IMG/VR virus record: IMGVR_UViG_3300035698_016964
Coordinates: 1-20,303 of that record
Origin: a virus
Reading direction: 5' to 3' (one strand)
Length of the DNA: 20,303 nt
In this document: one piece after another, positions 12-20,303 of the stretch
Position numbering within the stretch: position 1 is the first letter of the stretch
Layout: each line of letters opens with the position of its first letter
The notes under the pieces: generated by a model
What the model was told of the DNA's origin: nothing
What the model saw: the letters and a program-made list of their open reading frames with translations, nothing else
Database searches by the model: none
Position numbers and translations under genes: made by a program

Positions 12-704
12 TTATTTTTGTGCTTCTTGTAATCCTTGTTGAACATTCTTTGGTATCTGTGCATTCATCGTATTATCTATTGCATCATTGATAATATCTT
101 CTGGAACCTGTAAAGTTACTAATATCTGCTTTACAACCATTATCTTTAACTTATATAACAAAACATCAGGAATAGGATATTTATCTGTCCTGGTACTATC
201 ACATAAACTTGTTGGTCCAGAAGTAATTCCTATAAGACATAAATATTTTAATCCTGTAGTTGGAAGATTTTTAAAATATGCTTTACCTCCAATAACAACA
301 TAAATACATTTATAACCTGTCCACTTTCTTTTATTATATGTTTGGAACGATTTAATATTTACTCTGTCATATCCTGAAGTATTCATATTTGTATCTCCTA
401 AGTAAATAATATCTCTATTACCTATCCCTCCAACAACATTTGGTAATTCAGAATACCAATCTACATCTCCTGAATCTAAACTATCACAAACAATATTATC
501 ACATTTTAATTCAATACAACAAGTTTTACTATACCATTGATCATCTAACATTCTACCACTTACATAAGCTTGTTTTAACAATTCATTACGAACATCATTA
601 ATCTGTTCAATAATAAATTCTTCATCAAAATTAGTATCATCAGTATAATAAGGTTTTGTAATCTCTACTATATCATATATTATTTGTTCTACAGTTTTTC
701 TCAT
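12..704 (-). CDS. Ring/adaptor-like head-tail connector protein (putative)
   Basis: A 230-residue protein with ATG start and TAA stop. It has a helical N-terminus (residues 1-50), a central beta-rich part with a Cys cluster (CCIELKC, about residues 62-68), the stretch KAYFKNLPTTGLKYLCLIGI, then YPIPDVLLYKLKIMVVKQIL and a helical C-terminus. This layout and the K-A-Y-F-K-x-L-P-T-T-G-L-K-Y string recall the ring or tail-stabilisation proteins that sit between portal and tail in crAss-like phages; that is recalled similarity, not a search result. Its ATG overlaps the TGA of the upstream glycosyltransferase (ATGA), so its translation is probably coupled to that gene. This is odd for a virion gene. 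Another gene may begin right after it: an ATG lies at 5-3 on the minus strand, leaving only ATGGA inside the window. Structural role likely; exact position in the virion unproven. Confidence 0.6.
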   Translation of the reverse strand: MRKTVEQIIYDIVEITKPYYTDDTNFDEEFIIEQINDVRNELLKQAYVSGRMLDDQWYSKTCCIELKCDNIVCDSLDSGDVDWYSELPNVVGGIGNRDIIYLGDTNMNTSGYDRVNIKSFQTYNKRKWTGYKCIYVVIGGKAYFKNLPTTGLKYLCLIGITSGPTSLCDSTRTDKYPIPDVLLYKLKIMVVKQILVTLQVPEDIINDAIDNTMNAQIPKNVQQGLQEAQK

Positions 705-1705
705 TTTTCTATAGTTATTATTTTATTATCAATTCGTATTTTCTTTTTCTTCTTTTTTCTTCCTTTCTGAAAATCTAATACCGTCCCTATAAATTCAATC
801 TTTAATGATTTCTTCTTTTCTATTTCTACCTTATCTAATAATCTTTCTCTTTTTCTATTAATATAGTAATCCTTCATCTCTAATAACTTGTCTCTTAATT
901 CATATCCTATAATCTCTTCTATCTTTTTTTCTGTAAAAGTAAATAATTTATTTGTCTTTTCAAAATACTTCTCTCTAAACAAAGAAATTTGATTAGCTCC
1001 ATGTGTTGTTAAATTATTATTTATTTCTTCACAATTATCTGAATAAACCCTTAGTTTCTTCTTATTGATGTTTTTAGCTTCATTAAAAAACCAACTATCT
1101 ACCCCAGCATATCTATCACTATTTGGTAGTTGTCTTATAAAATCGCTTCTTAAAGCCATATTAAGCCCTGTTGGTTGTGTCGTAGTATTTTTAGACAATC
1201 TTGTTAAATCAAAATGTAATAACTTCTGTTTAACAATATGAAACATATAACATTGTTCCGACTGATACCAATCATAATCTTTTTCTACAATTTTTTGATA
1301 TGATTTATTAAATTTATATTCAGAAGAAGAATCATCGGCTCCCTGCATTAAAAATATCTTTGATGATTTACTGATATATTTACCTATCATTTTCCATTTA
1401 TGTGTTAATGGAATCCATCTATCTAATGCTATATAAACAACTTTTACGCATCCTGCCTCTTTTAACCTATCTTTATATAGTTTTAATTTTTCTTGTCCTA
1501 AATAGTCCCTTAATTGTTCTTCTGCAATTATTAATTCCCAAGGTTTATCAAAATCTTTTTGACTTATTAAACTTTCTAATGCTAACCATATTATTTGTCC
1601 TGAATTATATGCAGGTAATCCAACACTTAAAATAGGAACTTTATTTTTAATCTCATAAAGAATAATTTCATTATCTAATTTTTTAATATTTAATCCTTTT
1701 TTCAT
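701..1705 (-). CDS. Family 2-like glycosyltransferase
   Basis: A 334-residue GT-A type glycosyltransferase. The N-terminal strand and turn are PILSVGLPAYNSGQIIWLAL (residues 24-43), typical of GT2 nucleotide-sugar binding, and the metal-site region is MQGADDSSSE (about 120-129), where GADDSS replaces the usual DxD. WELIIAEE and the terminal THGANQIS region are shared with the C-terminal third of the next gene upstream (THGANQ versus IHGYNQ), so the two are paralogous. The C-terminus is a basic helical tail with a run of lysines. It presumably transfers a sugar from a nucleotide donor to a virion or host-surface acceptor; donor and acceptor cannot be read from sequence. The ATG at 1705 is used here, but the frame is open and protein-like for about 28 more codons upstream with no ATG, GTG or TTG. 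It ends in TGA overlapping the ATG of the downstream structural gene. Confidence 0.75.
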   Translation of the reverse strand: MKKGLNIKKLDNEIILYEIKNKVPILSVGLPAYNSGQIIWLALESLISQKDFDKPWELIIAEEQLRDYLGQEKLKLYKDRLKEAGCVKVVYIALDRWIPLTHKWKMIGKYISKSSKIFLMQGADDSSSEYKFNKSYQKIVEKDYDWYQSEQCYMFHIVKQKLLHFDLTRLSKNTTTQPTGLNMALRSDFIRQLPNSDRYAGVDSWFFNEAKNINKKKLRVYSDNCEEINNNLTTHGANQISLFREKYFEKTNKLFTFTEKKIEEIIGYELRDKLLEMKDYYINRKRERLLDKVEIEKKKSLKIEFIGTVLDFQKGRKKKKKKIRIDNKIITIEK

Positions 1706-1785
1706 ATTATTGTTTCTTAAATCATTATTAATATAAATTCTTTTGTCTCTTTTTTCTAATCCTAATAATTTATATACTATATCTT

Positions 1786-3984
1786 TTAAACAACAGAAGA
1801 TAATAATATATCTGTTCTAAAATAAGGAGGAATTGGTTGTTCAAGAAATCTTATCCTTGAAGTAATTTGATTATATCCATGAATATCTAATCCTTTTTTC
1901 CAGTTAATAGACTTATCTACATAAATTCGTAAATCTTTTTTCTTATATCTCCTCATCTCTTTCATTAACCAACTATCAATACCACTTTTTAATATCTTAT
2001 TTGATAACTTTTGTAATAATAACCTATTACAAGACATATTTAATCCTGTTATATATTTCCCTTTTTTATAATTAGTTATATCAAATAATAACATTTTATT
2101 TCTTTGAGGATAATAAAAATATCCTTTTAAAGAATGTACCCAATCATATTTTTCATCTGCTATTTTTTTCTTTGCTATTGATAATCTATTAGGATGAGAA
2201 TAACAATCAGAAGATTGTAATAAAAAAACTTTACTTTCTTTACTGCTATTATCATATAATATTTTCCATTTCTCAGATAATGAAATTTTTTTCTGCTGTT
2301 TAATATATTTTATTCTTATACATCCATTTTTTCTTAACCTATCTTCAAACTTATAAATATAATCTTCTCCGCAATAATTTAATTCTTGTTCCTCACAAAT
2401 TATTAACTCCCAACAAAAATTAATATTTTTTTGATTACATAATCCTTCTAAAGCTATCCAAGTTATAATAGCAGAATTATAAATAGGTAATGCTACTGTA
2501 AGAACAATTTTGTTACTATGATCTATCTTTAATAATTCTAATCCTTTTTTTTCTTCTTCAAGGATATTATTATCCATCTTCTTTGTTATATGTCTTGAAT
2601 TTTTACTTTGAACATACTTCCATGTATAATTATCATTATGAACAAATACATTTCCTTCACCTTCTGCTATTCTTAACCATAAATCATAATATGCATAATT
2701 ATTATATTTAATATTAAATGGTAGATATTTTTTTAACTTAGTATAATTAAAAACAGATAAATCAGAAACATAATTACCTTTTAAATGTTTATTATAATCA
2801 TAACTAAAAAATTTTCTTTTTCCTATTTCCTTATTATTTTCATCAATATTTACAAAATTAGAATAACATACTAATTTATCATTTTCAATACATTTACTTA
2901 TTTCTGTTCTTAACTTATTTTTATCCCAAATATCATTAGAAGAAGAATAACACAACCATTCTCCTTTAACTTTTTTTAATGCATTATTTAATTGATAAAA
3001 TATACCAGACTTATCACTTATCACTAAATCATCAATATCTAAATCCTTAACTATATCTATAGATGAATCTCCTTTTGCAGTTGAAAATATTATTTGAGTA
3101 TTAACATTCTGATTTCTTATATTTTTTATAGATGATATAATATTATTTTTGTTTTCTTTATAACTATTTATTATTATAGAAACTAAACTATTATCATAAT
3201 AATCATAATCGAAAAACGTATTTAAAAATAAAATAGATTTATTTATCTCTAAATATTCTCTCATCTTTTCTGATACTTTATTTACATCAACATTATATTT
3301 TCTTTGTTCTTCTATATGGTTTAATATATCTGTTTCATCTTTCCATGATAATGAATTTGGTGTATCTCCATTCCATATACAATTTCTTCCCATTAAACCT
3401 AATTCACAAACTGTATTAGCCAATCCATCATGTTTTGTTAATCTTAAACCTAAAAAACATTTTGTGTAAATATTTTTTAATTGTTCTTCTGTATAAGTAT
3501 TTTTATTAGTTAAATAAATTTTTATATCTGGAAAATTTTTCTTAATAATAGAAAGATAGTTTTCACCATAAAAACTTGGATTTTTTACAGAAGAATACAT
3601 ATATAGACTATCTCCCAAAGAAACAGGTGTAAAATTATTTGCAATTTTAGGATGAATAGGAAATTTTTTATATTTTATATTAAAACCATTTAATTTATTT
3701 TCTATAAAATTTGAAATAGCAATACTATAAATATGAGGATTAGAAGCTATCATATAAGCTATATCTGGATAGCTATATAACAATAATGTATCTGATCCCG
3801 TCCAAATTATTATAACTTTATTTCTATGATTAAATAAATCTTCAATATCAGATTTCTTATTAAAATAACAACCAAAAAAAAGAACAGGTTGGTTTATGTC
3901 ATTATAATCTTCTAAATCATATTTCTTTAAAAAAAAATCTTTAAAGAATTTTACTGATGATGATACACGCGCTTGTTTTATCAT
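1786..3984 (-). CDS. Three-domain glycosyltransferase (GT-B-like + GT2 + GT2)
   Basis: A 732-residue multidomain protein. Residues 1-260 resemble a GT-B type transferase: LGLRLTKHDGLANTVCELG (about 178-196) looks like the acceptor and nucleotide-sugar loop, with WNGDTP after it. Residues 266-460 form a GT2-like domain (SLVSIIINSYKENKNN, GEWLCYSSSNDIWDKNK with SSND in the metal-site position). Residues 490-732 form another GT2-like domain (VLTVALPIYNSAIITWIALE, WELIICEEQ, LLQSSDCYSHPNRL), clearly related to the separate gene that follows. A single polypeptide with three transferase modules suggests stepwise building of a short glycan. The start overlaps the preceding TGA stop (ATGA), giving translational coupling; the gene ends in TAA. 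Its C-terminus may be shortened: a -1 shift at the final GTTGTTTAA would enter the open frame leading into the next transferase. Confidence 0.75.
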   Translation of the reverse strand: MIKQARVSSSVKFFKDFFLKKYDLEDYNDINQPVLFFGCYFNKKSDIEDLFNHRNKVIIIWTGSDTLLLYSYPDIAYMIASNPHIYSIAISNFIENKLNGFNIKYKKFPIHPKIANNFTPVSLGDSLYMYSSVKNPSFYGENYLSIIKKNFPDIKIYLTNKNTYTEEQLKNIYTKCFLGLRLTKHDGLANTVCELGLMGRNCIWNGDTPNSLSWKDETDILNHIEEQRKYNVDVNKVSEKMREYLEINKSILFLNTFFDYDYYDNSLVSIIINSYKENKNNIISSIKNIRNQNVNTQIIFSTAKGDSSIDIVKDLDIDDLVISDKSGIFYQLNNALKKVKGEWLCYSSSNDIWDKNKLRTEISKCIENDKLVCYSNFVNIDENNKEIGKRKFFSYDYNKHLKGNYVSDLSVFNYTKLKKYLPFNIKYNNYAYYDLWLRIAEGEGNVFVHNDNYTWKYVQSKNSRHITKKMDNNILEEEKKGLELLKIDHSNKIVLTVALPIYNSAIITWIALEGLCNQKNINFCWELIICEEQELNYCGEDYIYKFEDRLRKNGCIRIKYIKQQKKISLSEKWKILYDNSSKESKVFLLQSSDCYSHPNRLSIAKKKIADEKYDWVHSLKGYFYYPQRNKMLLFDITNYKKGKYITGLNMSCNRLLLQKLSNKILKSGIDSWLMKEMRRYKKKDLRIYVDKSINWKKGLDIHGYNQITSRIRFLEQPIPPYFRTDILLSSVV

Positions 3985-4967
3985 AAATATTTATTTATAA
4001 TATTATTTAATCGTATTGCTGAATTTGTTATTGTAAATTTTTCTGTCTGTTTATAAATATAATCAGATGTTTGTTTTAAAAACATTCTATCTTTAATACA
4101 TTTTTCAATTAAAAAAAATAATCTATCTTGATTTTGTTTTCTATCTGCATATCTTAAACTATTTCTTCCTAAAAATAAAGGATAATTAATTCCTAAATCC
4201 TCTTCTCTAGCATAACTTTGACCTAATAGAATAGGAATACCACATCTACCACTCTCTTTTACTTTTAAAGAACCGGTAAAATCCCAAGTTAATTCTTTAT
4301 ATCCAGCAAAAGTTATATCACAAGCAGATAAATAAAATGGAACATTCTCATATTTTATATTTTTAACAATAATATTTTTTTTCTTAGGAAAAGTTCCTTT
4401 AGTAATTCCAACCAAAAGTTTTATTTCAGGATATTTTTGTACTAATCTATCCCATATACTTAATAAAAGAGAAGGATAATTAGAAGATACTTGCCTTCCA
4501 AATATACCTATTAAAAATGCTGAATCAATTTCTTTTCTTATTTGAATACATTTTTTTGACTTAACAACATTTAAATTAAAACTATCATCTATAACTTGAT
4601 AAAAACATTCTGTATTAGGATATTTATTTTTACCAATTCCTAAAACAGGATGAAATTTATTTCCTTTTCTTAATCCATCTCTCCATGTTTTACTCTGTGT
4701 AGTTAAGATATTAGTATAATTAAATGCTTCTTCATCATAAGGAGAAGCATAATAAATCTTTAATTTATCTTTTGGACATTTTAATAATAAATCCCTATTA
4801 TTTCTTATTATATAAATATCATAATTATTATGAAAATTTTTATTATTACCTATTGTTACATTAAAATTCTTTTTTAATGCATTAATTATTCCATTTTCAT
4901 TAATAGTATCTCCTCTTGTAGGAATTATCTCATTTACTGAAGATAATTTATAATAAATATTTAACAT
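3981..4967 (-). CDS. GT-B fold glycosyltransferase (GT4-like)
   Basis: A 328-residue protein with two Rossmann-like halves. The second half is the more recognisable: FLIGIFGRQVSSNYPSLL, then IKLLVGITKG, VPFYLSACDITFAGY and finally KVKESGRCGIPILLG. The E-S-G-x-x-G-I-P string matches the donor-binding helix of GT4-type retaining transferases (E, then G and P). No signal peptide or membrane segment is seen, so it acts in the cytoplasm of the infected cell. The ATG at 4967 begins just downstream of the TAA (4971-4973) of the methyltransferase. The TGA stop at 3981-3983 overlaps the next ATG and is followed at once by TAA in the same frame, so read-through would add only one residue. It belongs to the sugar-decoration cassette; the sugar and acceptor are unknown. 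Confidence 0.7.
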   Translation of the reverse strand: MLNIYYKLSSVNEIIPTRGDTINENGIINALKKNFNVTIGNNKNFHNNYDIYIIRNNRDLLLKCPKDKLKIYYASPYDEEAFNYTNILTTQSKTWRDGLRKGNKFHPVLGIGKNKYPNTECFYQVIDDSFNLNVVKSKKCIQIRKEIDSAFLIGIFGRQVSSNYPSLLLSIWDRLVQKYPEIKLLVGITKGTFPKKKNIIVKNIKYENVPFYLSACDITFAGYKELTWDFTGSLKVKESGRCGIPILLGQSYAREEDLGINYPLFLGRNSLRYADRKQNQDRLFFLIEKCIKDRMFLKQTSDYIYKQTEKFTITNSAIRLNNIINKYL

Positions 4968-4970
4968 GTT

Positions 4971-5510
4971 TTACAAAGTTAATATAAAATAATTTTTTAT
5001 TTGTTTTATTTTTAATGGATTTAATTTTTTTATTACATCATTTTTATCTTTAAATAATTGTATATGAGCATAATTTGGTTTGTTAATTGGAATAGTGGCT
5101 AATATTTTTCCATTTTTAGTTAAATATTTTTTCTTTATTTTTCGTATTATATCTAATGGATTTTCTAAATGTTCTAAGACTTCAATAAAAAATATCATAT
5201 CAAATTGCTTATTACAATCATTACTTTTTATAAAATTCTCCAAATTAGAACAAATAAAAAAATAATTTATATATAATTTATATTTTTCAATAGCTTTTAT
5301 TATTCTATTAATCGAATAATCTATTCCCATATAATATACATCTTCAGGTAATAAATTTACTAATCTTCCATCTCCACATCCTAAATCTAAAACAGAAGAT
5401 ATATTTTTTGGAATTTCTAATAAAAGACTATCGTTTAATCCATCATCTAAAAAAGAATGATAATTAACATATTTATTATAATGTTGTATTAAATCTATTT
5501 CTTTCTTCAT
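4971..5510 (-). CDS. Class I SAM-dependent methyltransferase
   Basis: A 179-residue Rossmann-fold methyltransferase. Motif I is VLDLGCGDGRL (about residues 40-50), the acidic residue at the end of strand 2 is MGIDYS (61-66), and the post-motif region is FDMIFFIEVLEHLENPLDI (103-121), the classical E-V-L-E-H signature of small-molecule methylases; KNGKILATIPINKP supplies strand 5. It is short compared with the usual 200-250 residues, so the C-terminal cap looks reduced. The frame extends to a TTG at 5537, but the ATG at 5510 is preferred because it forms an ATGA overlap with the sulfotransferase stop, as the neighbours do. Position between a sulfotransferase and glycosyltransferases suggests O- or N-methylation of a sugar, or of a precursor of the same glycan; the substrate is inferred only. 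Confidence 0.8.
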   Translation of the reverse strand: MKKEIDLIQHYNKYVNYHSFLDDGLNDSLLLEIPKNISSVLDLGCGDGRLVNLLPEDVYYMGIDYSINRIIKAIEKYKLYINYFFICSNLENFIKSNDCNKQFDMIFFIEVLEHLENPLDIIRKIKKKYLTKNGKILATIPINKPNYAHIQLFKDKNDVIKKLNPLKIKQIKNYFILTL

Positions 5511-6178
5511 TTTATAAAATTTAACTTTCGTAACCAAATAAAAAATTCTAAATTATCAATTTCCATTATTTGATTATGAAATTTTGATATAGAATTACTA
5601 TCTAATGGTCTGCGTTTATATTTTGTTTTATCAAAATTCTTTAAATAAGTGAAAGCGTTATCTGGAACAAAATTAGGATAATCAGAAAATTTATATTTGA
5701 TTATTAATCCTAATTTATTAGCAATTTTTCGTTGAACCTTATCAGGATTATTAATTAATTCCTCGTATTTAACTTGAACATCAATAATATCCTTATATAT
5801 TTCTTGTGCTTCCATACAATCAATCCACCTATTTAAATGTTTATTATCATATTCAAATTTTGTTTTATTTTTTGTAAAAGATAATAAAACATCTCGACCA
5901 TCTCTTATAATATTAACTATTTTAATCCTATTCTTTTTAATTGTTTTAATATCATTATCACATTCTTCTTTTGAAAAAATATTAAAAGAATTAGTTAAAA
6001 TATTTTTGCTTGTTCGTTTTGCTATTAAAATATTAACTACTTCTTCAAATTTTATAAAATTTTGTAAACTTATCTCATTATTTTTTACATGAATAATTTT
6101 AACATTTTCAAAAGAATAAAAAAGATATTGTAATAAAGTAGTTCCTGATTTAGCACATCCTGTAATAAATATTTTCAT
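5507..6178 (-). CDS. PAPS-dependent sulfotransferase
   Basis: A 223-residue sulfotransferase-fold protein. The 5'-phosphosulfate-binding P-loop is FITGCAKSGTTLLQ (residues 4-17), with the K-S-G-T-T core of the family, and the 3'-phosphate-binding segment is NIIRDGRDVLLSF (89-101) with the expected Arg, Asp, Gly, Arg, Asp and Ser. The size matches bacterial and viral sulfotransferases that sulfate sugars or proteins using PAPS. It is the first gene of the decoration cassette, preceded by a hairpin that may attenuate transcription (6192-6225). Its TGA stop overlaps the methyltransferase ATG; in the same frame a TAG follows four codons later. It likely adds sulfate to the glycan made by the downstream transferases, but could modify a host surface polysaccharide instead. 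Confidence 0.85.
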   Translation of the reverse strand: MKIFITGCAKSGTTLLQYLFYSFENVKIIHVKNNEISLQNFIKFEEVVNILIAKRTSKNILTNSFNIFSKEECDNDIKTIKKNRIKIVNIIRDGRDVLLSFTKNKTKFEYDNKHLNRWIDCMEAQEIYKDIIDVQVKYEELINNPDKVQRKIANKLGLIIKYKFSDYPNFVPDNAFTYLKNFDKTKYKRRPLDSNSISKFHNQIMEIDNLEFFIWLRKLNFIK

Positions 6179-8926: not shown

Positions 8927-10366
8927 TTACGGTATATAAAGTTCAGCTACTCCATCAGGATCTTTTATTGCTATTCCTGTTTCAGCAAGAATATGAACAT
9001 GTTTACCATCTATAGAATTAGACATATCATCTCCACCTTTATTAATACCATTAACAGTTCCTTTTAAGAACGCTCTCTTTCCTAAAGCTAATAAATCAAC
9101 CATAGGTACTCCAGCATCTACCCCTAAAGAAACGAAAATAGCTCTTCCACTTTCTTTTCTTATTCCTGTTGTAGGATCTACATACTGAGGGCGTGTAGGA
9201 CTATCAAACCATTTATGCCATACAGGAACAAAACGAATACCTCCATATTCATAAGAAACAAAAGTAGAATTGATACCTTTACTTGAACCTGAACCGTCAA
9301 CTAATGATACAGGATTAGCTTTTATCACAGTTAGCATAAGGTCGCTAAATCCAAGCATAAAATCTTGACCTGCAATAACAGCTACTTCCTGAACACCATC
9401 AGAATTACCATATAATTTTAAATTCTTCATCACATTTTGAAGAACACCTTTTGTTAAGGTTCCATTATATTGAAATCTTAAAGCACCATCTCCTTGATAA
9501 AGTAAACCATCACCACCTCTAATATCTCTATTCTTTAAGTCTTTTAATACAACAACATCATTTGATGTAACTGTACCTTTACCAAAGATTAATTGATATT
9601 CTCGTGATGCAGCCCATCTCCTTAACATCTCCATATCTTGATAAGTAGTCCATAATTCTTGACCATTATGTTCTATCCATACTGTGCTTTCTTTCATTGC
9701 TTCAGCTGTTCCACTTATTGACCATTTCATTCTTTGTATAGTCAAATGAGTAGTAGCCATTTCATCGAAAGTATATTTTTCATATGCTGTTTGAGACATC
9801 TCATAAAACATATTATAAACATATCCTATCTCTGCTCCTGAAGCTAACAATGAAGATTCAATAAAATCTTCTGTTGTTTTTGTAACAAGCCTTACATAAT
9901 ATTTCCATTCTCCACCAGCAACTTCTTCTGGAAGCATATCATCAATAACATGAACCAATGTTCTGTTATCTTGTAATTCCAATACATCATAAGGACTATT
10001 CCAATTACTATCAAGATAAATAGCAACCAGACTTTGATATTTTCCTTTTTCTGTCGGATATGCATCACATACTGCATCTCTGGTCATTACATTTTTTCGA
10101 TCTTTTAGACCTCTAACTTTCCATTGTATTTTAGTATTTCCAACGACTTTATAACCACCTGTTGAAGCGGCATCAAGTCCATTATAAAGATTTCCTGATG
10201 TCAATCCTCTATCTGCTAAAATAGAAGAAAAAGCAGTATCATCACTTCTAAATAATGTTGCTACTTGTGGTAATACAGCTGGTTCAGAAATAGCATATTG
10301 CATTAAGTGATGAGACGTTGGTGTCTCATTCGCAAATTGTTTGGGGCGACCCGGTAATATTCTCAT
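8927..10366 (-). CDS. Major capsid protein
   Basis: A 479-residue protein, the expected size for an HK97-fold capsid subunit of crAss-like and related phages. It begins with an extended basic arm (MRILPGRPKQFANETPTSHH), followed by mixed alpha/beta segments; WIEHNGQELWTTYQDMEMLR and RRWAASREYQLIFGKG form the likely spine helix region, and KGINSTFVSYEYGGIRFVPV with GRAIFVSLGVD resembles the P-domain strands. It follows a highly charged scaffold-like gene, and a strong terminator comes after it, as expected for the most abundant virion protein. The start is preceded by a run of A residues and an AT-rich element 12 nt upstream; no Shine-Dalgarno is present. The call comes from size, order and composition; I did not identify the exact family. 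Confidence 0.75.
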   Translation of the reverse strand: MRILPGRPKQFANETPTSHHLMQYAISEPAVLPQVATLFRSDDTAFSSILADRGLTSGNLYNGLDAASTGGYKVVGNTKIQWKVRGLKDRKNVMTRDAVCDAYPTEKGKYQSLVAIYLDSNWNSPYDVLELQDNRTLVHVIDDMLPEEVAGGEWKYYVRLVTKTTEDFIESSLLASGAEIGYVYNMFYEMSQTAYEKYTFDEMATTHLTIQRMKWSISGTAEAMKESTVWIEHNGQELWTTYQDMEMLRRWAASREYQLIFGKGTVTSNDVVVLKDLKNRDIRGGDGLLYQGDGALRFQYNGTLTKGVLQNVMKNLKLYGNSDGVQEVAVIAGQDFMLGFSDLMLTVIKANPVSLVDGSGSSKGINSTFVSYEYGGIRFVPVWHKWFDSPTRPQYVDPTTGIRKESGRAIFVSLGVDAGVPMVDLLALGKRAFLKGTVNGINKGGDDMSNSIDGKHVHILAETGIAIKDPDGVAELYIP

Positions 10367-11921: not shown

Positions 11922-14480
11922 TTAATCTTTTATATGTTCTTTTGTTGTTCGTTGTTTTGGAGCTTGTGATATATTTATACCTGTCCCTTTCTCAGCATTT
12001 TTATCTATACTCTTATTTTCCAGTATAGCATCTATTCTTGTCTGTAATAATTCTATCTGTGCATCTACTCCACTTTGTCTTTTTTTCTCATCTAAATATC
12101 TCATCTCTGTCTCATTCTCTGATACTATTTCCACAACTTTTAATGCTCTCTCTTGGTCTAATTTTTTTATACTTAATGCTTTCTCAAATTCTAATTTATC
12201 TCTATCCATCTGTAATCTTGCTTCTTCTAATTTATTCTTTACCATCTCTAATTGAGTTTTCTGGTCCTGAATAATTTTATCATATTCAGCTTTTAATTTT
12301 ATCTCTGTTTCTTTTAATTTTATTTTACCATCACTTTCTCCTTTAGCTTTTTCTAATTCAAATTTTTGTGCTGCTTCTGAAAATTCAATAGCTTTTCTTT
12401 CTAATTCTTTTATATTTTGTGTACCATAAATTCCTATTAATTGTTGTATCTGCATTCTTCCTCTAGAAAATTCCATCTCCGACATTGTTTCAATCTTTTT
12501 TATCTTCCTACTTATCTCACTATTTTTATCAACAAATATTTCTACATCTGCTTTATCTGTTACTCCTTTAGGAATATTTATAATCTCTTGCCTAAAATCA
12601 TCTCCTACGTATGCCAATTGTTCTCCATCTTTCCAAACTATTTTATTTTGTATGTTCATAAGGCGTGTTAAAGCCTTTTTATCCAGTTCATCTTGTTCTT
12701 GATAGTAATGGTCAATAATTAATAAAGATTGTTCTTGTGCCATCTTAGATGTCTCTACTGGGTCCTTAGAAACAAATTGTCCTTTTGCTTGTCTCGGAAT
12801 ACCTAACATATCATCTACAGTAGCTTTTAAACTTTCTTTTAAAGCTCCTAAATATTGTATAGCAGGAGATAATGTATCATCATAAGAAGTAAATTGATTA
12901 AACATTGGTGTTCTTCTGCCTTTTTTTACTGTTTGAATAAATCCTACTCCTATTTTTTTAAGATAACTAAATTCTTTTATACTCATTCCTTCAGGAAGCT
13001 GTGATTTATCCATAATAAATCCTTTAGTACCTGATAAGGCTAACATTAATTCTTCATGATAAGAAACAATATTATAAAGTATCTGAATATCTTTTGTTGC
13101 TAATATGGGAGAATAAGGGTCTTCAGTTATTGAAGAAAATGATTTTCCTATAACAGGCAATTCTACTCTTGATAAATTATCAATACTTCTTAATTGTAAT
13201 TGTTTTTTACCTAACTTCTTATATACACAACCAGCAATACAATCTCCTGCATAAATATCATTAATATATCTTTTACTAACTTTATTCCTTTTATTTGTTT
13301 TATCATATTTATTTTCTTCTGTCTCATTTTCAAAATGAATAATCTTAGTATCATCTAAATGAGGATGAAGCTTTTCCTTTATTTTTACTTTACGCTGACT
13401 TTTCCAAAATACTCTCCATACATCTACTCCATCAGAATCATAATCAGAAGAACCAGAATATAATTCTTTATTAAATACTGCTGTATTACCTTTATAATTA
13501 TTTATATTATTTCCTAATTGAGTATAAGCACTTCTTTTTTCTATATTTTTTATTTCTTCTGTTGTTAAATCATAATTCTCTATTATTCTTGATAAACTTT
13601 GTTTTTCTAAAATAGCAACCCATGTACCATCTTGAATCCATTCATTATCTCCATCATTACTCCAATATGTTTTTACTGAATTTAACGCTTCATAAGTAGC
13701 ATAATCATTTCCTTCTTCCCAATCAACAAAATAAAGAGGTTTTCCTGTTATCATCTTATCCGTAAAAGCTTTTTTACTCTTTAACTTAATATCTAATTTT
13801 CTTTTTAAAACTTCTAATCCTTTTTGTGTTACTTCTTCAACTAAATCTCTATAATCATATTTGTAATATTTTTCTATTTTATCAATTTCTTCTTTTGAAA
13901 ATAATGCTTCTCTTTGTATCTCTCTCTTCATTATACTAAATGAATTTAATACCTTTACTTTCACTTCTTTTAATTGTTGTAATTTAGCTAATTCTTCTTG
14001 TGATTCAGGTTTCTTCTGTATCATCTGCATAAACTCCTGTTCCTTCTCTTGTATCTGCATTAATTGTTCTGTGAGTTTATCATATTTCCTTTGTATCTTA
14101 AATCGTATCTTATCAAGATATTCTTTAATTTTTGCATTCTCTTTATTGGAAATAGATTCTTTATCTATAGTAAAAGCGTAAAAATTATAAGGTTGTAACA
14201 TTTTTTGATTAATAACCCAATTGATAGAAGGTCTAACAATACCTATCCATCGCATCTTTGCAGGATAAGTATAAGTTACATTCTTTTTACTTTCTGTTAC
14301 TTGCGTTAAATAATTATAATCTTCCTGAGTGAATGTTTCATAATATAATTTATAACATAATATATCTTTAGCTTTTACATCGTTTCCTGCTGTTGCAATC
14401 TTAATAATATCATCTATTGTTTTTATACAAAATTTATCATCTTTTTTGTTTTCAGGTATTAATTGATTTTGTAATGACAT
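11922..14480 (-). CDS. Portal protein with long C-terminal coiled coil
   Basis: An 852-residue protein placed between terminase and scaffold/capsid genes. Residues 1-110 form the N-terminal region (YPAKMRWIGIVRPSINWVIN). Residues 115-205 are an inserted helical hairpin rich in Gln, Glu and Lys. YDYRDLVEEVTQKGLEVLKR through the segment ending ITGKPLYFVDWEEG (208-257) resembles the wing and stem entry of crAss-like portals. Residues 545-590 carry KATVDDMLGIPRQAKGQF and ETSKMAQEQS, the helical segment ahead of the crown in that group. Residues about 640-810 are a nearly continuous coiled coil, compatible with an extended barrel or internal head structure, and the tail is flexible. It is larger than typical portals (450-750). 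The ATG follows a poly-A leader 12 nt after the terminase stop; TAA stop. Confidence 0.8.
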   Translation of the reverse strand: MSLQNQLIPENKKDDKFCIKTIDDIIKIATAGNDVKAKDILCYKLYYETFTQEDYNYLTQVTESKKNVTYTYPAKMRWIGIVRPSINWVINQKMLQPYNFYAFTIDKESISNKENAKIKEYLDKIRFKIQRKYDKLTEQLMQIQEKEQEFMQMIQKKPESQEELAKLQQLKEVKVKVLNSFSIMKREIQREALFSKEEIDKIEKYYKYDYRDLVEEVTQKGLEVLKRKLDIKLKSKKAFTDKMITGKPLYFVDWEEGNDYATYEALNSVKTYWSNDGDNEWIQDGTWVAILEKQSLSRIIENYDLTTEEIKNIEKRSAYTQLGNNINNYKGNTAVFNKELYSGSSDYDSDGVDVWRVFWKSQRKVKIKEKLHPHLDDTKIIHFENETEENKYDKTNKRNKVSKRYINDIYAGDCIAGCVYKKLGKKQLQLRSIDNLSRVELPVIGKSFSSITEDPYSPILATKDIQILYNIVSYHEELMLALSGTKGFIMDKSQLPEGMSIKEFSYLKKIGVGFIQTVKKGRRTPMFNQFTSYDDTLSPAIQYLGALKESLKATVDDMLGIPRQAKGQFVSKDPVETSKMAQEQSLLIIDHYYQEQDELDKKALTRLMNIQNKIVWKDGEQLAYVGDDFRQEIINIPKGVTDKADVEIFVDKNSEISRKIKKIETMSEMEFSRGRMQIQQLIGIYGTQNIKELERKAIEFSEAAQKFELEKAKGESDGKIKLKETEIKLKAEYDKIIQDQKTQLEMVKNKLEEARLQMDRDKLEFEKALSIKKLDQERALKVVEIVSENETEMRYLDEKKRQSGVDAQIELLQTRIDAILENKSIDKNAEKGTGINISQAPKQRTTKEHIKD

Positions 14481-14492
14481 ATTTTTTTTTTT

Positions 14493-16493
14493 TTAAATAT
14501 GAATAATATCTTCACCCATTTTCTGATATCCAATATCAAATACATCTATTTCTGCTTCTTCTATCAACTCTCTATTCATCATTGTTTCTTTAAATTCTTC
14601 TAAACAAACTACATTTAATGAAGTATGTATAGTAATATCACAATTATATCCTTTTTGTAATCTGTATTTTGCTAATGCTTCTATCTGCTCACAATCAAAC
14701 ATTTTATCTACATTGGCATAATCATCTTTAACTAAAAATTCTTCTAATAACATTAACCAATGAATTTTTGTACTCGGATCTATTCCATATCTATTTGACG
14801 CTTTACTATCTTTTATCCATGTTGAAGTCAGGAAAGCAGGTTTTTCAACTAACAAATGTTCAAATCCTTTTCTCTCATAAAAACTTGCTAACAGAATTTT
14901 ACTCCATTCAAGAAGATTTAATGCATTGAAATAAATCATTAACTTAATTGTTTTTTCATAAAATTTTTCTGCTCCTCCAAATAATGTTCCATCTCCTTCT
15001 GGTCTAACAGTTATTCTTGCTACCCACATATTATAAGTATTCTTAGCATTTAAAAACCCTTTTAATATACCACAAGAACCTTTTGATTCTGATGTCTGAC
15101 TTTCATTTACATCATAACTATCTGTAGCTCCAAAATAAAGATTATCAGGAACTTTTCCATCTACATCAACATTAGGTCTCTCAACAATAAATATATCTTC
15201 TTTCCCAAATCTATCTGCCCCAGGATGAAATTTCATTCCTTTACCCCAATCCGAAGGATCATTTTCTACCAAATGACCATAAACACCAATATCTTCTTCT
15301 CTATGAGATTTAATATAAGCTCTTCTTCTACTTAATGCATCTCGTAATCCAGGACTAAAAAAACTTCCTGAAATGACTTGAAATGCTTCTGAAGGATTAA
15401 ATGGTTTTTTAGCTTGTAGTTCTAATAATTTCTTTCCTTTTTTCTGATTTCTTTCTTCTTGAAGTTTTTCTACACTTTCTTTTTTTAATGTATTACCATC
15501 TTTATCAACTTTTTCAAATTCCCATCCAGGAGTAAAAGAAGCTGTATTACTCTCTCCTTCTTCGTAAACATTTTTAAACTCCAATAAATTATATTCAGCA
15601 GGATTATAAAACATTTCTTCTACATCTGCAACTCCTCTTTCCATATCACCACCGGTTGCAATAATATATTCATATCCTGTCTTTATTCCCTCAGCTTCTA
15701 ACGAAGGATCAATAAATCCTTTTGCTGCTAATAATATATCTCTTTGCCATTTTCCTCCTTCTTCCATAATAACCCAATAGGGAGTTAATCTTGAAACTGC
15801 TTCTGGATTATTTCTTGCTGTAAGAGAATATATTGTAGATTTAAAACCTTTAACTTGAACTCTTTTTCTTCCTTCATCATCTATTATTGTTTCTTTATAG
15901 CTTGCTTTTTTAAAATCTGATTTATCAGGACTTCGCTCTTTATAAAATTCTGTCTCAACAAGTCCATCAAGCATTCTTTCTGTCTTTAAAAATAATGCTT
16001 CACTATCGTCATCTACTCCTGCTACAATAACATTTACCGATGCAGGAACAAATGTAAAATTATAACATAATCCTGCTCCTGCAATAAATTCACTAAATCC
16101 CTTTTGGCGCGCTTTAAGTTCAAGATTATCTTTATCCTCTGCTACCATTAATTCCATACGATATGCTTTCTTAAAATCTAAAGAAGTAAATCGTGGAGCA
16201 ATCTCTCCTTTAATTTTTGTGCCTTTCTTTAAACCATAAATAGAACAAAAATTAAGATAAAAATAATGTCTGCCGGTAATAGTTATATTATCTCCTTTAT
16301 TCGTAGCTTTATTTACCACATATCCTTCTAAACATCTTCTTCGTTGCTCATTCCACCATAATACATAAGCATCATAATCATCCTTATTAGGCATATCATT
16401 ATCATATATAACAGGACTAAATCTTTCTGTTTTAATAAATTTAATCTTATCTACGTATAACAATAACTTTCTTATATCTTTTGCATTATTCAA
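14493..16493 (-). CDS. terL: Terminase large subunit
   Basis: A 666-residue DNA-packaging motor. The N-terminal ATPase shows a degenerate Walker A, KARQKGFSEF (residues 127-136, R-x-x-G-x-S), a Walker B YWVIMEEGG (239-247) with catalytic Glu, and the coupling motif IIATGGD (277-283). The C-terminal RNase H-like nuclease begins at NLYFGATDSYDVNESQTS (451-468) with the first metal Asp; HLLVEKPAFL (546-555) and MFDCEQIEALAKY (598-610) provide later acidic residues. The D-S-Y-D-x-x-x-S-x-T-S pattern recalls crAss-like terminases. It would cut and translocate the concatemer into the portal. The start is unusual: TTG at 16493, preceded directly by an in-frame TAA; the next ATG would remove 33 conserved-looking residues, so TTG is preferred. 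It follows a small membrane-protein gene by 7 nt. TAA stop. Confidence 0.92.
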   Translation of the reverse strand: MNNAKDIRKLLLYVDKIKFIKTERFSPVIYDNDMPNKDDYDAYVLWWNEQRRRCLEGYVVNKATNKGDNITITGRHYFYLNFCSIYGLKKGTKIKGEIAPRFTSLDFKKAYRMELMVAEDKDNLELKARQKGFSEFIAGAGLCYNFTFVPASVNVIVAGVDDDSEALFLKTERMLDGLVETEFYKERSPDKSDFKKASYKETIIDDEGRKRVQVKGFKSTIYSLTARNNPEAVSRLTPYWVIMEEGGKWQRDILLAAKGFIDPSLEAEGIKTGYEYIIATGGDMERGVADVEEMFYNPAEYNLLEFKNVYEEGESNTASFTPGWEFEKVDKDGNTLKKESVEKLQEERNQKKGKKLLELQAKKPFNPSEAFQVISGSFFSPGLRDALSRRRAYIKSHREEDIGVYGHLVENDPSDWGKGMKFHPGADRFGKEDIFIVERPNVDVDGKVPDNLYFGATDSYDVNESQTSESKGSCGILKGFLNAKNTYNMWVARITVRPEGDGTLFGGAEKFYEKTIKLMIYFNALNLLEWSKILLASFYERKGFEHLLVEKPAFLTSTWIKDSKASNRYGIDPSTKIHWLMLLEEFLVKDDYANVDKMFDCEQIEALAKYRLQKGYNCDITIHTSLNVVCLEEFKETMMNRELIEEAEIDVFDIGYQKMGEDIIHI

Positions 16494-16500
16494 TTATCTA

Positions 16501-16761
16501 TTATTTAAATAAATTAGGAAATATTTTTTTTGGTTCATCATTATTAGGAAGCCAAGAAAAACCAAAAAGAAACCATACAAAATAATTAATATGGTCATAT
16601 TCTAATTCTATCTTACCTAAATCAACAAAATCAAATTGCTGTTCTCCTAAAACAAAAAAAGTAACTAAAGCACAAATAACCATAATCACTCTAAACCATT
16701 TTGGATTTGTTGTTTGAAGTCTATCCAAAAAAACTTTAATCCATTCAAATACTGTTTTCAT
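16501..16761 (-). CDS. Small two-helix membrane protein, holin candidate
   Basis: An 86-residue protein with an amphipathic N-terminus (VFEWIKVFLDRLQ), a first membrane segment WFRVIMVICALVTFFVLG (about residues 22-39), an acidic loop, a second membrane segment YFVWFLFGFSWLP (about 60-72), and a basic C-terminus (KKIFPNLFK). Size, two spans and position next to a membrane-anchored coiled-coil protein suit a holin, but no endolysin is present in the window and no family motif is recognised. ATG start with an AT-rich element 9 nt upstream; TAA stop. Confidence 0.5.
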   Translation of the reverse strand: MKTVFEWIKVFLDRLQTTNPKWFRVIMVICALVTFFVLGEQQFDFVDLGKIELEYDHINYFVWFLFGFSWLPNNDEPKKIFPNLFK

Positions 16762-16770
16762 AATTTCAAA

Positions 16771-16787
16771 TTTTAATTAATAATTAT
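16771..16787 (-). promoter_or_regulatory. AT-rich start element, 9 nt before ATG 16761
   Basis: The coding strand reads ATAATTATTAATTAAAA. It begins at the stop codon of the preceding gene. Confidence 0.45.
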
Positions 16788-17095
16788 TTTTTACCATTTT
16801 GTTTTATTGTTTTTATAATCGTTATCTGTAATTGTTCTAATTTTTTAGACAACTCTTTATGATCTTGTTTATTTTCTTGTTGATAATCTTTGACCATTTC
16901 TGTTATTTCATTTTTATTAATCCTACTTTCTTTTCTTATATCCTTAATATCTTTTTTAATATTAACTATCTCTACTTGATTATTACTTATTCTCTTCTCA
17001 TTATAAACGAATGTTTTAAATAAAGCAACTATACTTCCAAAAACTGCTGTTATCGTTGCAATAATAAATCCAACCATTAAAGATTTATGAGGCAT
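16784..17095 (-). CDS. Membrane-anchored coiled-coil protein, spanin or holin candidate
   Basis: A 103-residue protein with one N-terminal membrane helix (LMVGFIIATITAVFGSIVAL, residues 6-25) followed by a long charged coiled coil (NNQVEIVNIKKDIKDIRKES, QDHKELSKKLEQLQITIIK). This N-in, helix-out layout is shared by inner-membrane spanins and by some small tail or lysis accessory proteins. There is no lipoprotein partner gene visible. It lies between an uncharacterised gene and the holin candidate, making a small lysis group before the terminase plausible but unproven. ATG start; TAA stop. Confidence 0.45.
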   Translation of the reverse strand: MPHKSLMVGFIIATITAVFGSIVALFKTFVYNEKRISNNQVEIVNIKKDIKDIRKESRINKNEITEMVKDYQQENKQDHKELSKKLEQLQITIIKTIKQNGKK

Positions 17096-18298: not shown

Positions 18299-20303
18299 TT
18301 ATTTTGTTAATTCATTTGAGCTACCCATAGTATCTCTTTCTAAATGAATTCCTGTTTGAGTAATAAAAACCCTATCTCTATATTCATTTCCACCAGTTGC
18401 AACAATTCTCTTAACTCTTATTTTAACTTGCGCTCCTATTAAATAATTTGTTAAAGTAACTGCTCCCATATCTAAATAAAAATTATGCAATGCAGCGGAA
18501 CCTGTTGGAATCGTATATTCAGCACTTAACACAGCTTGTTCTACCCAGACTTCATCGTTATCAGCACAAGCTACCCATACACTAAATTTAGCATAGCTAT
18601 CTGTTCCTGAATCTTGTAGTTTTGCTATAGAAAAATGAACATGAGCATGTCCTTCTGTTCCTTCTTTCCACCAATGAGGAAGTTCATTAGCTTGTAAATC
18701 AATATAATCATTAACTTTAAAACAATATTCATTTGTATTTGCAGTAAACGGTTCCCATGTTGGAAAATTAGAAGATGGAACTTTAGCATTAGAAATAGGA
18801 AATTGCACATCTTCCCATACCCTCGCTGTTCCTACTAAACTTAAATGTCCATTATTAGCAAAAGAAGTATAATTAGTAGCTTGATCTCCTAATCTTGTTG
18901 CTCCAACAATATGTAATTCTGTTTGAGGAGTTGTTGTTCCAATTCCAACTTTTCCAGTTTCATCTATAGTTACCTTAGGAACAGTTCCATATCTTATTCG
19001 AAGTTTATTTGAATAATCAATATATCCATAAGCCCCATCAGTATGAAAATCTAAATTCTGCCCCCCTGTATCTTGTAATCTTAAAGTTGGATTTGATGTT
19101 GCTTCAATATGAAGTTCTTTTAAAGGAGTTGTTGTTCCAATTCCAACCCTACTATTAGCACCATCAACATAAAAAATATTTGCTCTTTTTCCATCTCCAA
19201 CCCAAAGATTTCTATATTGTGTGTTTGCTCCCAAATAACCATCATAATTTATGTAACCTGTTCTTGTTGCATTTATAGTAGGTGCAAAAACAATCTCATC
19301 ATTTATTGCAATATTTCCATAAACATCTAATTTTTCATAAGGTGTTGTTGTTCATATCCCTAGTCTTGCGTTAGCTATATCCCGAAAGAAATTGGCGTTA
19401 TCTTGTGCTAGATTCGTTCAATCAGAAAATACTACACTACCTGCTGTTAGTGAGGTTGTCAAACTTTCTACATCTGGTAGTGATGTGGCTGTATGTGTAT
19501 GTCATGGGTTTGCTCCTGTTGTTACGTTAGCTCATGTTACTGTTGTTGCTGCTACTGTACCTGTTACCGTTACTATACTACTAATGGTATCTATAGTCAT
19601 AACATTCGTACTAGCATCAGCTTTGTTGAAATTGAACGCTGTAGCGTGGTCTGCACTAGGATAGAAAATTGATTGAGCTAGATATTTAGTTCTACTTAAT
19701 GAATCTATTGAATATAAGAAATTTGAATTAGCATTGTTTAATTGAAATACATTAGCTCCTGCATTATCTGAAAGTTTATACTGTATATTACCAGCACCTG
19801 TCGCATTAGCTTCTACTACATAATTACCACCAGTCCATCATACTACCCAATAAGGATTACTACTAGGATTATTACCATAAAATATTCTAGCAGTATTATC
19901 TGTTAAATATAAATCAGCAGCATTAGCTTTTATACTGCCGTATGTCTCTAACGCTATCGCTCAACCATTGATATATACTTTACTTCAATCCCAAGTAAAA
20001 TTGGCACTCCCTTCTAAAGTTCAAGCATTAGAATAAACAACATGATTATCAGTTATCCCTGATATGAAATTAGCTCATGTTATATTTCAAGCAGTTGTTA
20101 AATTATAGTTCCCTGTTCAATCTGTTCACGATAGAAAATGTCAAGCATTGGTTATGCTTCGTCTGTCTGTGTTATTGGTTATGAATCATATATCAAAATT
20201 ATCTATAGAACCTAATGTCTTTTTAGCTCATAGAGTATTTCAGTTTAGTCTCCAAGTATTTAATGTATTTAATCATGAATCAACCCAAGCAGGTGTTCAG
20301 TCA
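18299..20303 (-). CDS. Tail-fibre protein, 5'-partial, with TGA read as glycine
   Basis: The frame is open from the window edge to TAA at 18299 if TGA is sense: 18 in-frame TGA codons (19352 to 20299) and no TAA or TAG. About 667 residues are visible. N-terminal part: W-R-L-N-G-N-T-L-G-A-K-K-T-L-G, GNITGANFISG, FTWDGSKVYING and GANPGHTHTATSLP, all common in fibre shafts and tips. Then three G-I-G-T-T-T-P repeats, each followed by a short beta segment (YEKLDVYGN, LKELHIEA, TELHIVG). The last 140 or so residues, from VQFPISNAKVPSSNFPTW through HWWKEGTEGHAHVHFS to LERDTMGSSNELTK, form a C-terminal beta domain widespread in phage fibres. It probably binds the host surface. With standard code the only start is TTG 19234 inside the shaft, with no start signal, giving a 311-residue stump. 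GGA is the main glycine codon below 19340; above it TGA (18) and about 16 GGN codons share the role. The N-terminus is outside the window. Confidence 0.85.
18927..18949 (-). repeat. Direct repeat coding G-I-G-T-T-T-P, copy 1
   Basis: A 23-bp stretch identical to 19125-19147. It encodes the fibre motif V-G-I-G-T-T-T-P with glycine as GGA. Confidence 0.9.
19125..19147 (-). repeat. Direct repeat coding G-I-G-T-T-T-P, copy 2
   Basis: Identical to copy 1 over 23 bp, again with GGA for the second glycine of the motif. Confidence 0.9.
19341..19363 (-). repeat. Diverged copy 3 of the G-I-G-T-T-T-P repeat with TGA for Gly
   Basis: The first 13 bp on the plus strand match copies 1 and 2 except for one base, then it diverges. 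The codon that is GGA in copies 1 and 2 is TGA here (19354-19352). This is where the TGA-containing part of the fibre gene begins. Confidence 0.85.

Follow-up and report, generated by a model that had tools for sequence, protein, structure and literature searches.

The virus record IMGVR_UViG_3300035698_016964, analysed here as one linear window covering its whole length (positions 1-20,303, with the genes on the minus strand), is most likely a chimera of assembly or amplification, in which a standard-code crAss-like phage has been joined to a genome that uses genetic code 25. A switch of code occurs in the middle of a fibre gene, and this switch is probably an artefact rather than a feature of a natural gene. 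We infer that the join arose in silico or during library preparation and not in a cell.

Under code 25, a single open frame extends over positions 18299-20302 on the minus strand and encodes a fibre-like protein that carries three GIGTTTP repeats and runs off the end of the contig. In the upstream, N-terminal half of this frame (from 20302 down to 19352), which is of code-25 type and has no start before the contig end, TGA accounts for 18 of the 34 glycine codons, whereas it accounts for none of the 31 in the downstream, C-terminal half (from 19318 down to 18299; Fisher p = 5e-7). The proportion given by the earlier note, about one half above the boundary and none below it, is thus borne out. 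The downstream half follows the standard code, with codon use like that of the other genes of the phage. The recoded stretch is 951 bases long and lies at the very end of the linear fragment, without a start or a neighbouring gene. When the fibre frame is read in the standard code it contains 18 stops; the downstream half then opens only at a TTG codon at 19234, and no ATG is found near the join. With 18 TGA codons and no ATG near the join, a standard-code host could not make the joined fibre, nor would its downstream part be rescued. A promoter scan found no more promoter-like sites in the fibre gene than in shuffles, and a terminator scan of the same gene gave one terminator-like site (19940-19915; 0.6 expected).

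In order to assign a meaning to the in-frame TGA codons, we masked them as X in the query and aligned it with relatives. At residue 295, glycine was present in 61 of 66 aligned relatives, and at residue 317 in 59 of 65. Since these well-aligned columns are occupied by glycine, the alignments indicate that the in-frame TGA codons of 19352-20302 are read as glycine, as in code 25. At the 16 other TGA positions the relatives were few or poorly aligned and did not decide the matter. Only at residue 62 was tryptophan the most frequent, being present in 4 of about 10 weak alignments; it was rejected as the meaning of TGA because both well-sampled columns align with glycine.

The position of the switch can be defined closely. 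The last TGA codon occupies 19352-19354 and the first glycine codon downstream is GGA at 19316-19318, confining the switch to at most 33 bases (19319-19351, minus strand). In accordance with the placement proposed in the earlier note, this interval lies inside the third copy of the GIGTTTP repeat (T-T-T-P-Y-E-K-L-D-V-Y, within G-I-G-T-T-T-P-Y-E-K-L-D-V-Y-G). Synonymous codon use, with glycine, methionine and tryptophan codons removed, has its best single break at 19339 (LLR 38.4, compared with a maximum of 32.8 across 200 permutations). When the phage's own genes were taken to represent the downstream side, the two-unit log-likelihood interval for the break was 19312-19360, and this narrowed to 19318-19351 with glycine included. 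The mean log probability of the upstream half (−1.01) falls outside all 274 windows taken from the phage's genes (mean −0.63, lowest −0.80), and that of the downstream half (−0.66) is typical of them. Because two independent signals, the glycine codons and the synonymous codons of other amino acids, shift together, two sources meet within the 33 bases. From codon use, then, it is well supported that two sources, one of them with TGA as glycine, are joined at a shared fibre repeat. This part of the original proposal stands, and the false join that it named as an alternative is now the better explanation.

A shift in base composition had also been claimed at the boundary. Two 60-base lines (19441-19560) do reach 41.7% and 45.0% GC, but the upstream and downstream halves stand at 34.4% and 32.4%, and composition alone shows no boundary. 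With the halves only 2 percentage points apart, the GC shift was rejected as evidence for the boundary. Elsewhere, GC contents of 33-35% occur near 6.5-7.2 kb and 9.0-10.5 kb, and 13 of the 338 sixty-base lines reach 40% GC.

The remaining ~18 kb of the contig belongs, by its genes, to a divergent crAss-like phage. It encodes a terminase large subunit (14493..16493; phrog_6681, E 4e-59), a portal protein (11922..14480; phrog_6547, E 2e-56) and a major capsid protein (8927..10366; PF23898 Crass_capsid, E 2e-31), all on the minus strand. The crAss-type capsid, terminase and portal, in the same order as in the named crAss-like phages L082 and L083, place it in the Crassvirales. It differs from known members in its divergence and in not showing the usual TAG-Gln or TGA-Trp recoding. 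The top matches of the terminase among named phages are only 27-30% identical, although matches in viral contigs reach 40%; no close terminase relatives were found by single-sequence search, and megablast of the window against named phages gave no match. The named phages that match best have hosts in the Bacteroidota. Among the 5,793 codons of the 18 other phage genes there is no in-frame TGA, so that code 25 coding does not extend to the rest of the contig. TGA serves as the stop codon in 3 of the 18 genes, compared with 5/17, 5/23, 4/36 and 3/14 in crAss-like controls. Reading TGA as sense gave no consistent gain in coding density in relatives of the terminase or of the fibre domain, which points to the standard code in these relatives. 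No tRNA was found within the 20,303-base window.

The two halves of the fibre differ in their relatives when searched separately, as had been recommended. For the C-terminal domain (18299..18817, minus strand), relatives are present in about ten viral contigs at 42-70% identity, all of them standard code in the fibre; for the upstream half, viral and genome collections yielded only weak, short or partial matches, none of them recoded. A uniform relative holding both sides with TGA, which according to the earlier note would have made the arrangement ancestral, was looked for, and no relative spanning both halves was found. An unbroken parent of either half was likewise not found, nor was a Gracilibacteria or Absconditabacteria relative of 19352-20302 in viral or genome collections; the back-translated patterns probably miss TGA-coded glycine, and the collections and the pattern method may therefore overlook code-25 relatives. 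By contrast, the repeat at residues 284-330, which surrounds the join, is common, occurring in at least 63 viral loci. The fibre frames of these loci show no dense TGA, the few TGA codons falling outside the gene or in unrelated readings, and in the 34 fibre frames with at least two repeats among the fetched loci there was neither a TGA nor a case of mixed code. A search for TGA-coded GIGTTxP repeats across all viral contigs gave 10 matches, all of which we read as chance. The 26-base junction word is present in no other viral contig, and no fetched locus shares more than 14-16 bases of exact DNA match with the stretch around the join, the identity being at the protein level.

The domain at 18299-18817 (ANELPHWWKEGT, NFYLDLG) is common to the phage contigs L065-L067, L085 and L088-L094, which range from 38 to 53% GC. 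Since these contigs have quite different upstream fibre parts, the domain is probably a mobile fibre end domain; it has no Pfam match.

To account for the junction, we propose that assembly, or a chimera formed in amplification, would have extended the crAss-like phage (base 1 to ~19,340) across the GIGTTTP repeat. The extension would then enter the fibre gene of a second genome reading TGA as glycine by code 25, the code of Gracilibacteria and Absconditabacteria and of their phages or prophages. As expected of such an event, the source signature changes (break 19318-19351) at a sequence that is shared between genomes. A terminal stretch of 951 bases, a shared repeat and a frame that cannot be read in the code of the other genes together form the pattern of a false extension. 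Published simulations indicate that chimeric contigs arise in viral metagenomes and relate them to sequences conserved between genomes, phage structural genes among them (PMC3901335). The present contig is alike in that two genomes are joined at a conserved phage structural sequence, and differs in that the genetic codes of the parents differ, which makes the join visible to within 33 bases. The dense TGA-glycine of 19352-20302 likewise resembles the code-25 phages and prophages of Gracilibacteria and Absconditabacteria (PMC10746230); here, however, only 951 bases are recoded and the other 19 kb are in standard code with crAss-like genes. The short exact DNA identity around the join is a counterpoint to a chimera, since joining by k-mers would require the two genomes in the sample to share an unusually similar stretch; otherwise a short-overlap step or amplification would be needed.

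The frame is preserved across the join, which sits at a homologous repeat, and this might instead be taken to favour genuine transfer to a phage that can use a code-25 host, with the hybrid fibre made only in that host. We consider this unlikely. Any join inside a homologous coding repeat keeps the frame, and the in-frame join therefore carries no weight. It is true that the 18 phage genes lack in-frame TGA and that each of the three TGA stops has a TAA or TAG 0-3 codons behind it, which would allow the genome to be translated in code 25. Earlier work reports phages that are compatible with code 11 and yet match spacers of Gracilibacteria or Absconditabacteria, with no in-frame TGA and with several stops close together (PMC10746230), and the present genome is loosely similar to them in both respects. 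However, its use of TGA stops is no rarer than in the crAss-like controls, many of which likewise have near backup stops, and the background chance of a backup stop within three codons in the AT-rich window is 0.37. Three TGA stops prove little and are not enough to demonstrate that the phage is adapted to a TGA-glycine host. With control rates similar and backups common, there is little evidence of a code-25 host; moreover, the relatives are standard-code, the best-matching named hosts are Bacteroidota and the mixed fibre was seen nowhere else among the 34 frames with the repeat. The form of transfer suggested in the earlier note, a receptor-binding segment moving in frame into a standard-code phage gene, is not supported. 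The terminal end of a fibre is usually the receptor-binding part, whereas the recoded part here is the upstream N-terminal half, which is not the terminal end because the frame finishes with the standard-code C-terminal domain; the 18 stops in the standard code also speak against it.

Another reading is that a real and recent insertion disrupted a standard-code phage's fibre, with the junction present in DNA molecules and the gene dead or giving only a short C-terminal product; this would agree with a sequence that is open only with TGA as a residue. We nevertheless regard it as very unlikely: selection would disfavour such a broken fibre and should keep it rare in the population behind the consensus, and the sequence shortly below the join offers no usual start. 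Less probable again is that the crAss-like phage itself recodes one late gene by means of a suppressor tRNA. Phage recoding is known as TAG to glutamine or TGA to tryptophan, including in crAss-like phages, and the control L082 (crAss-like phage cr124_1) provides an instance, its terminase gene (14896-16956) containing 8 in-frame standard-code stops yet reading through with code 15, TAG being read as glutamine. In the present fibre, TGA does not fall where relatives have tryptophan, and the well-aligned positions match glycine. The recoding ends in mid-gene along with a change of all codon use, recoding is absent from the portal, terminase and capsid genes, and there is no tRNA in the window. 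Overall, a chimeric join remains the favoured origin of the contig.

If the join is false, the case demonstrates that a code switch in mid-gene can reveal a chimeric viral contig and place its join to a few dozen bases, and it is a warning against taking such joins for gene flow. If it is real, a crAss-like phage would be linked to a code-25 host, and no earlier example of a gene with two genetic codes mixed in mid-frame is known to us.

The structural region of the phage also contains a low-GC block (701-6178; ~17-27% GC in 500-base windows) whose genes are of the surface-modification type. These comprise a glycosyltransferase family 2 (1786-3984, with a weak match also at 701-1705), a methyltransferase (4971-5537) and a sulfotransferase (5507-6178). 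The three TGA stops, at 701-703, 3981-3983 and 5507-5509, are those followed in frame by TAA or TAG within 0-3 codons, and each of the first two shares an ATGA with the start codon that comes next.
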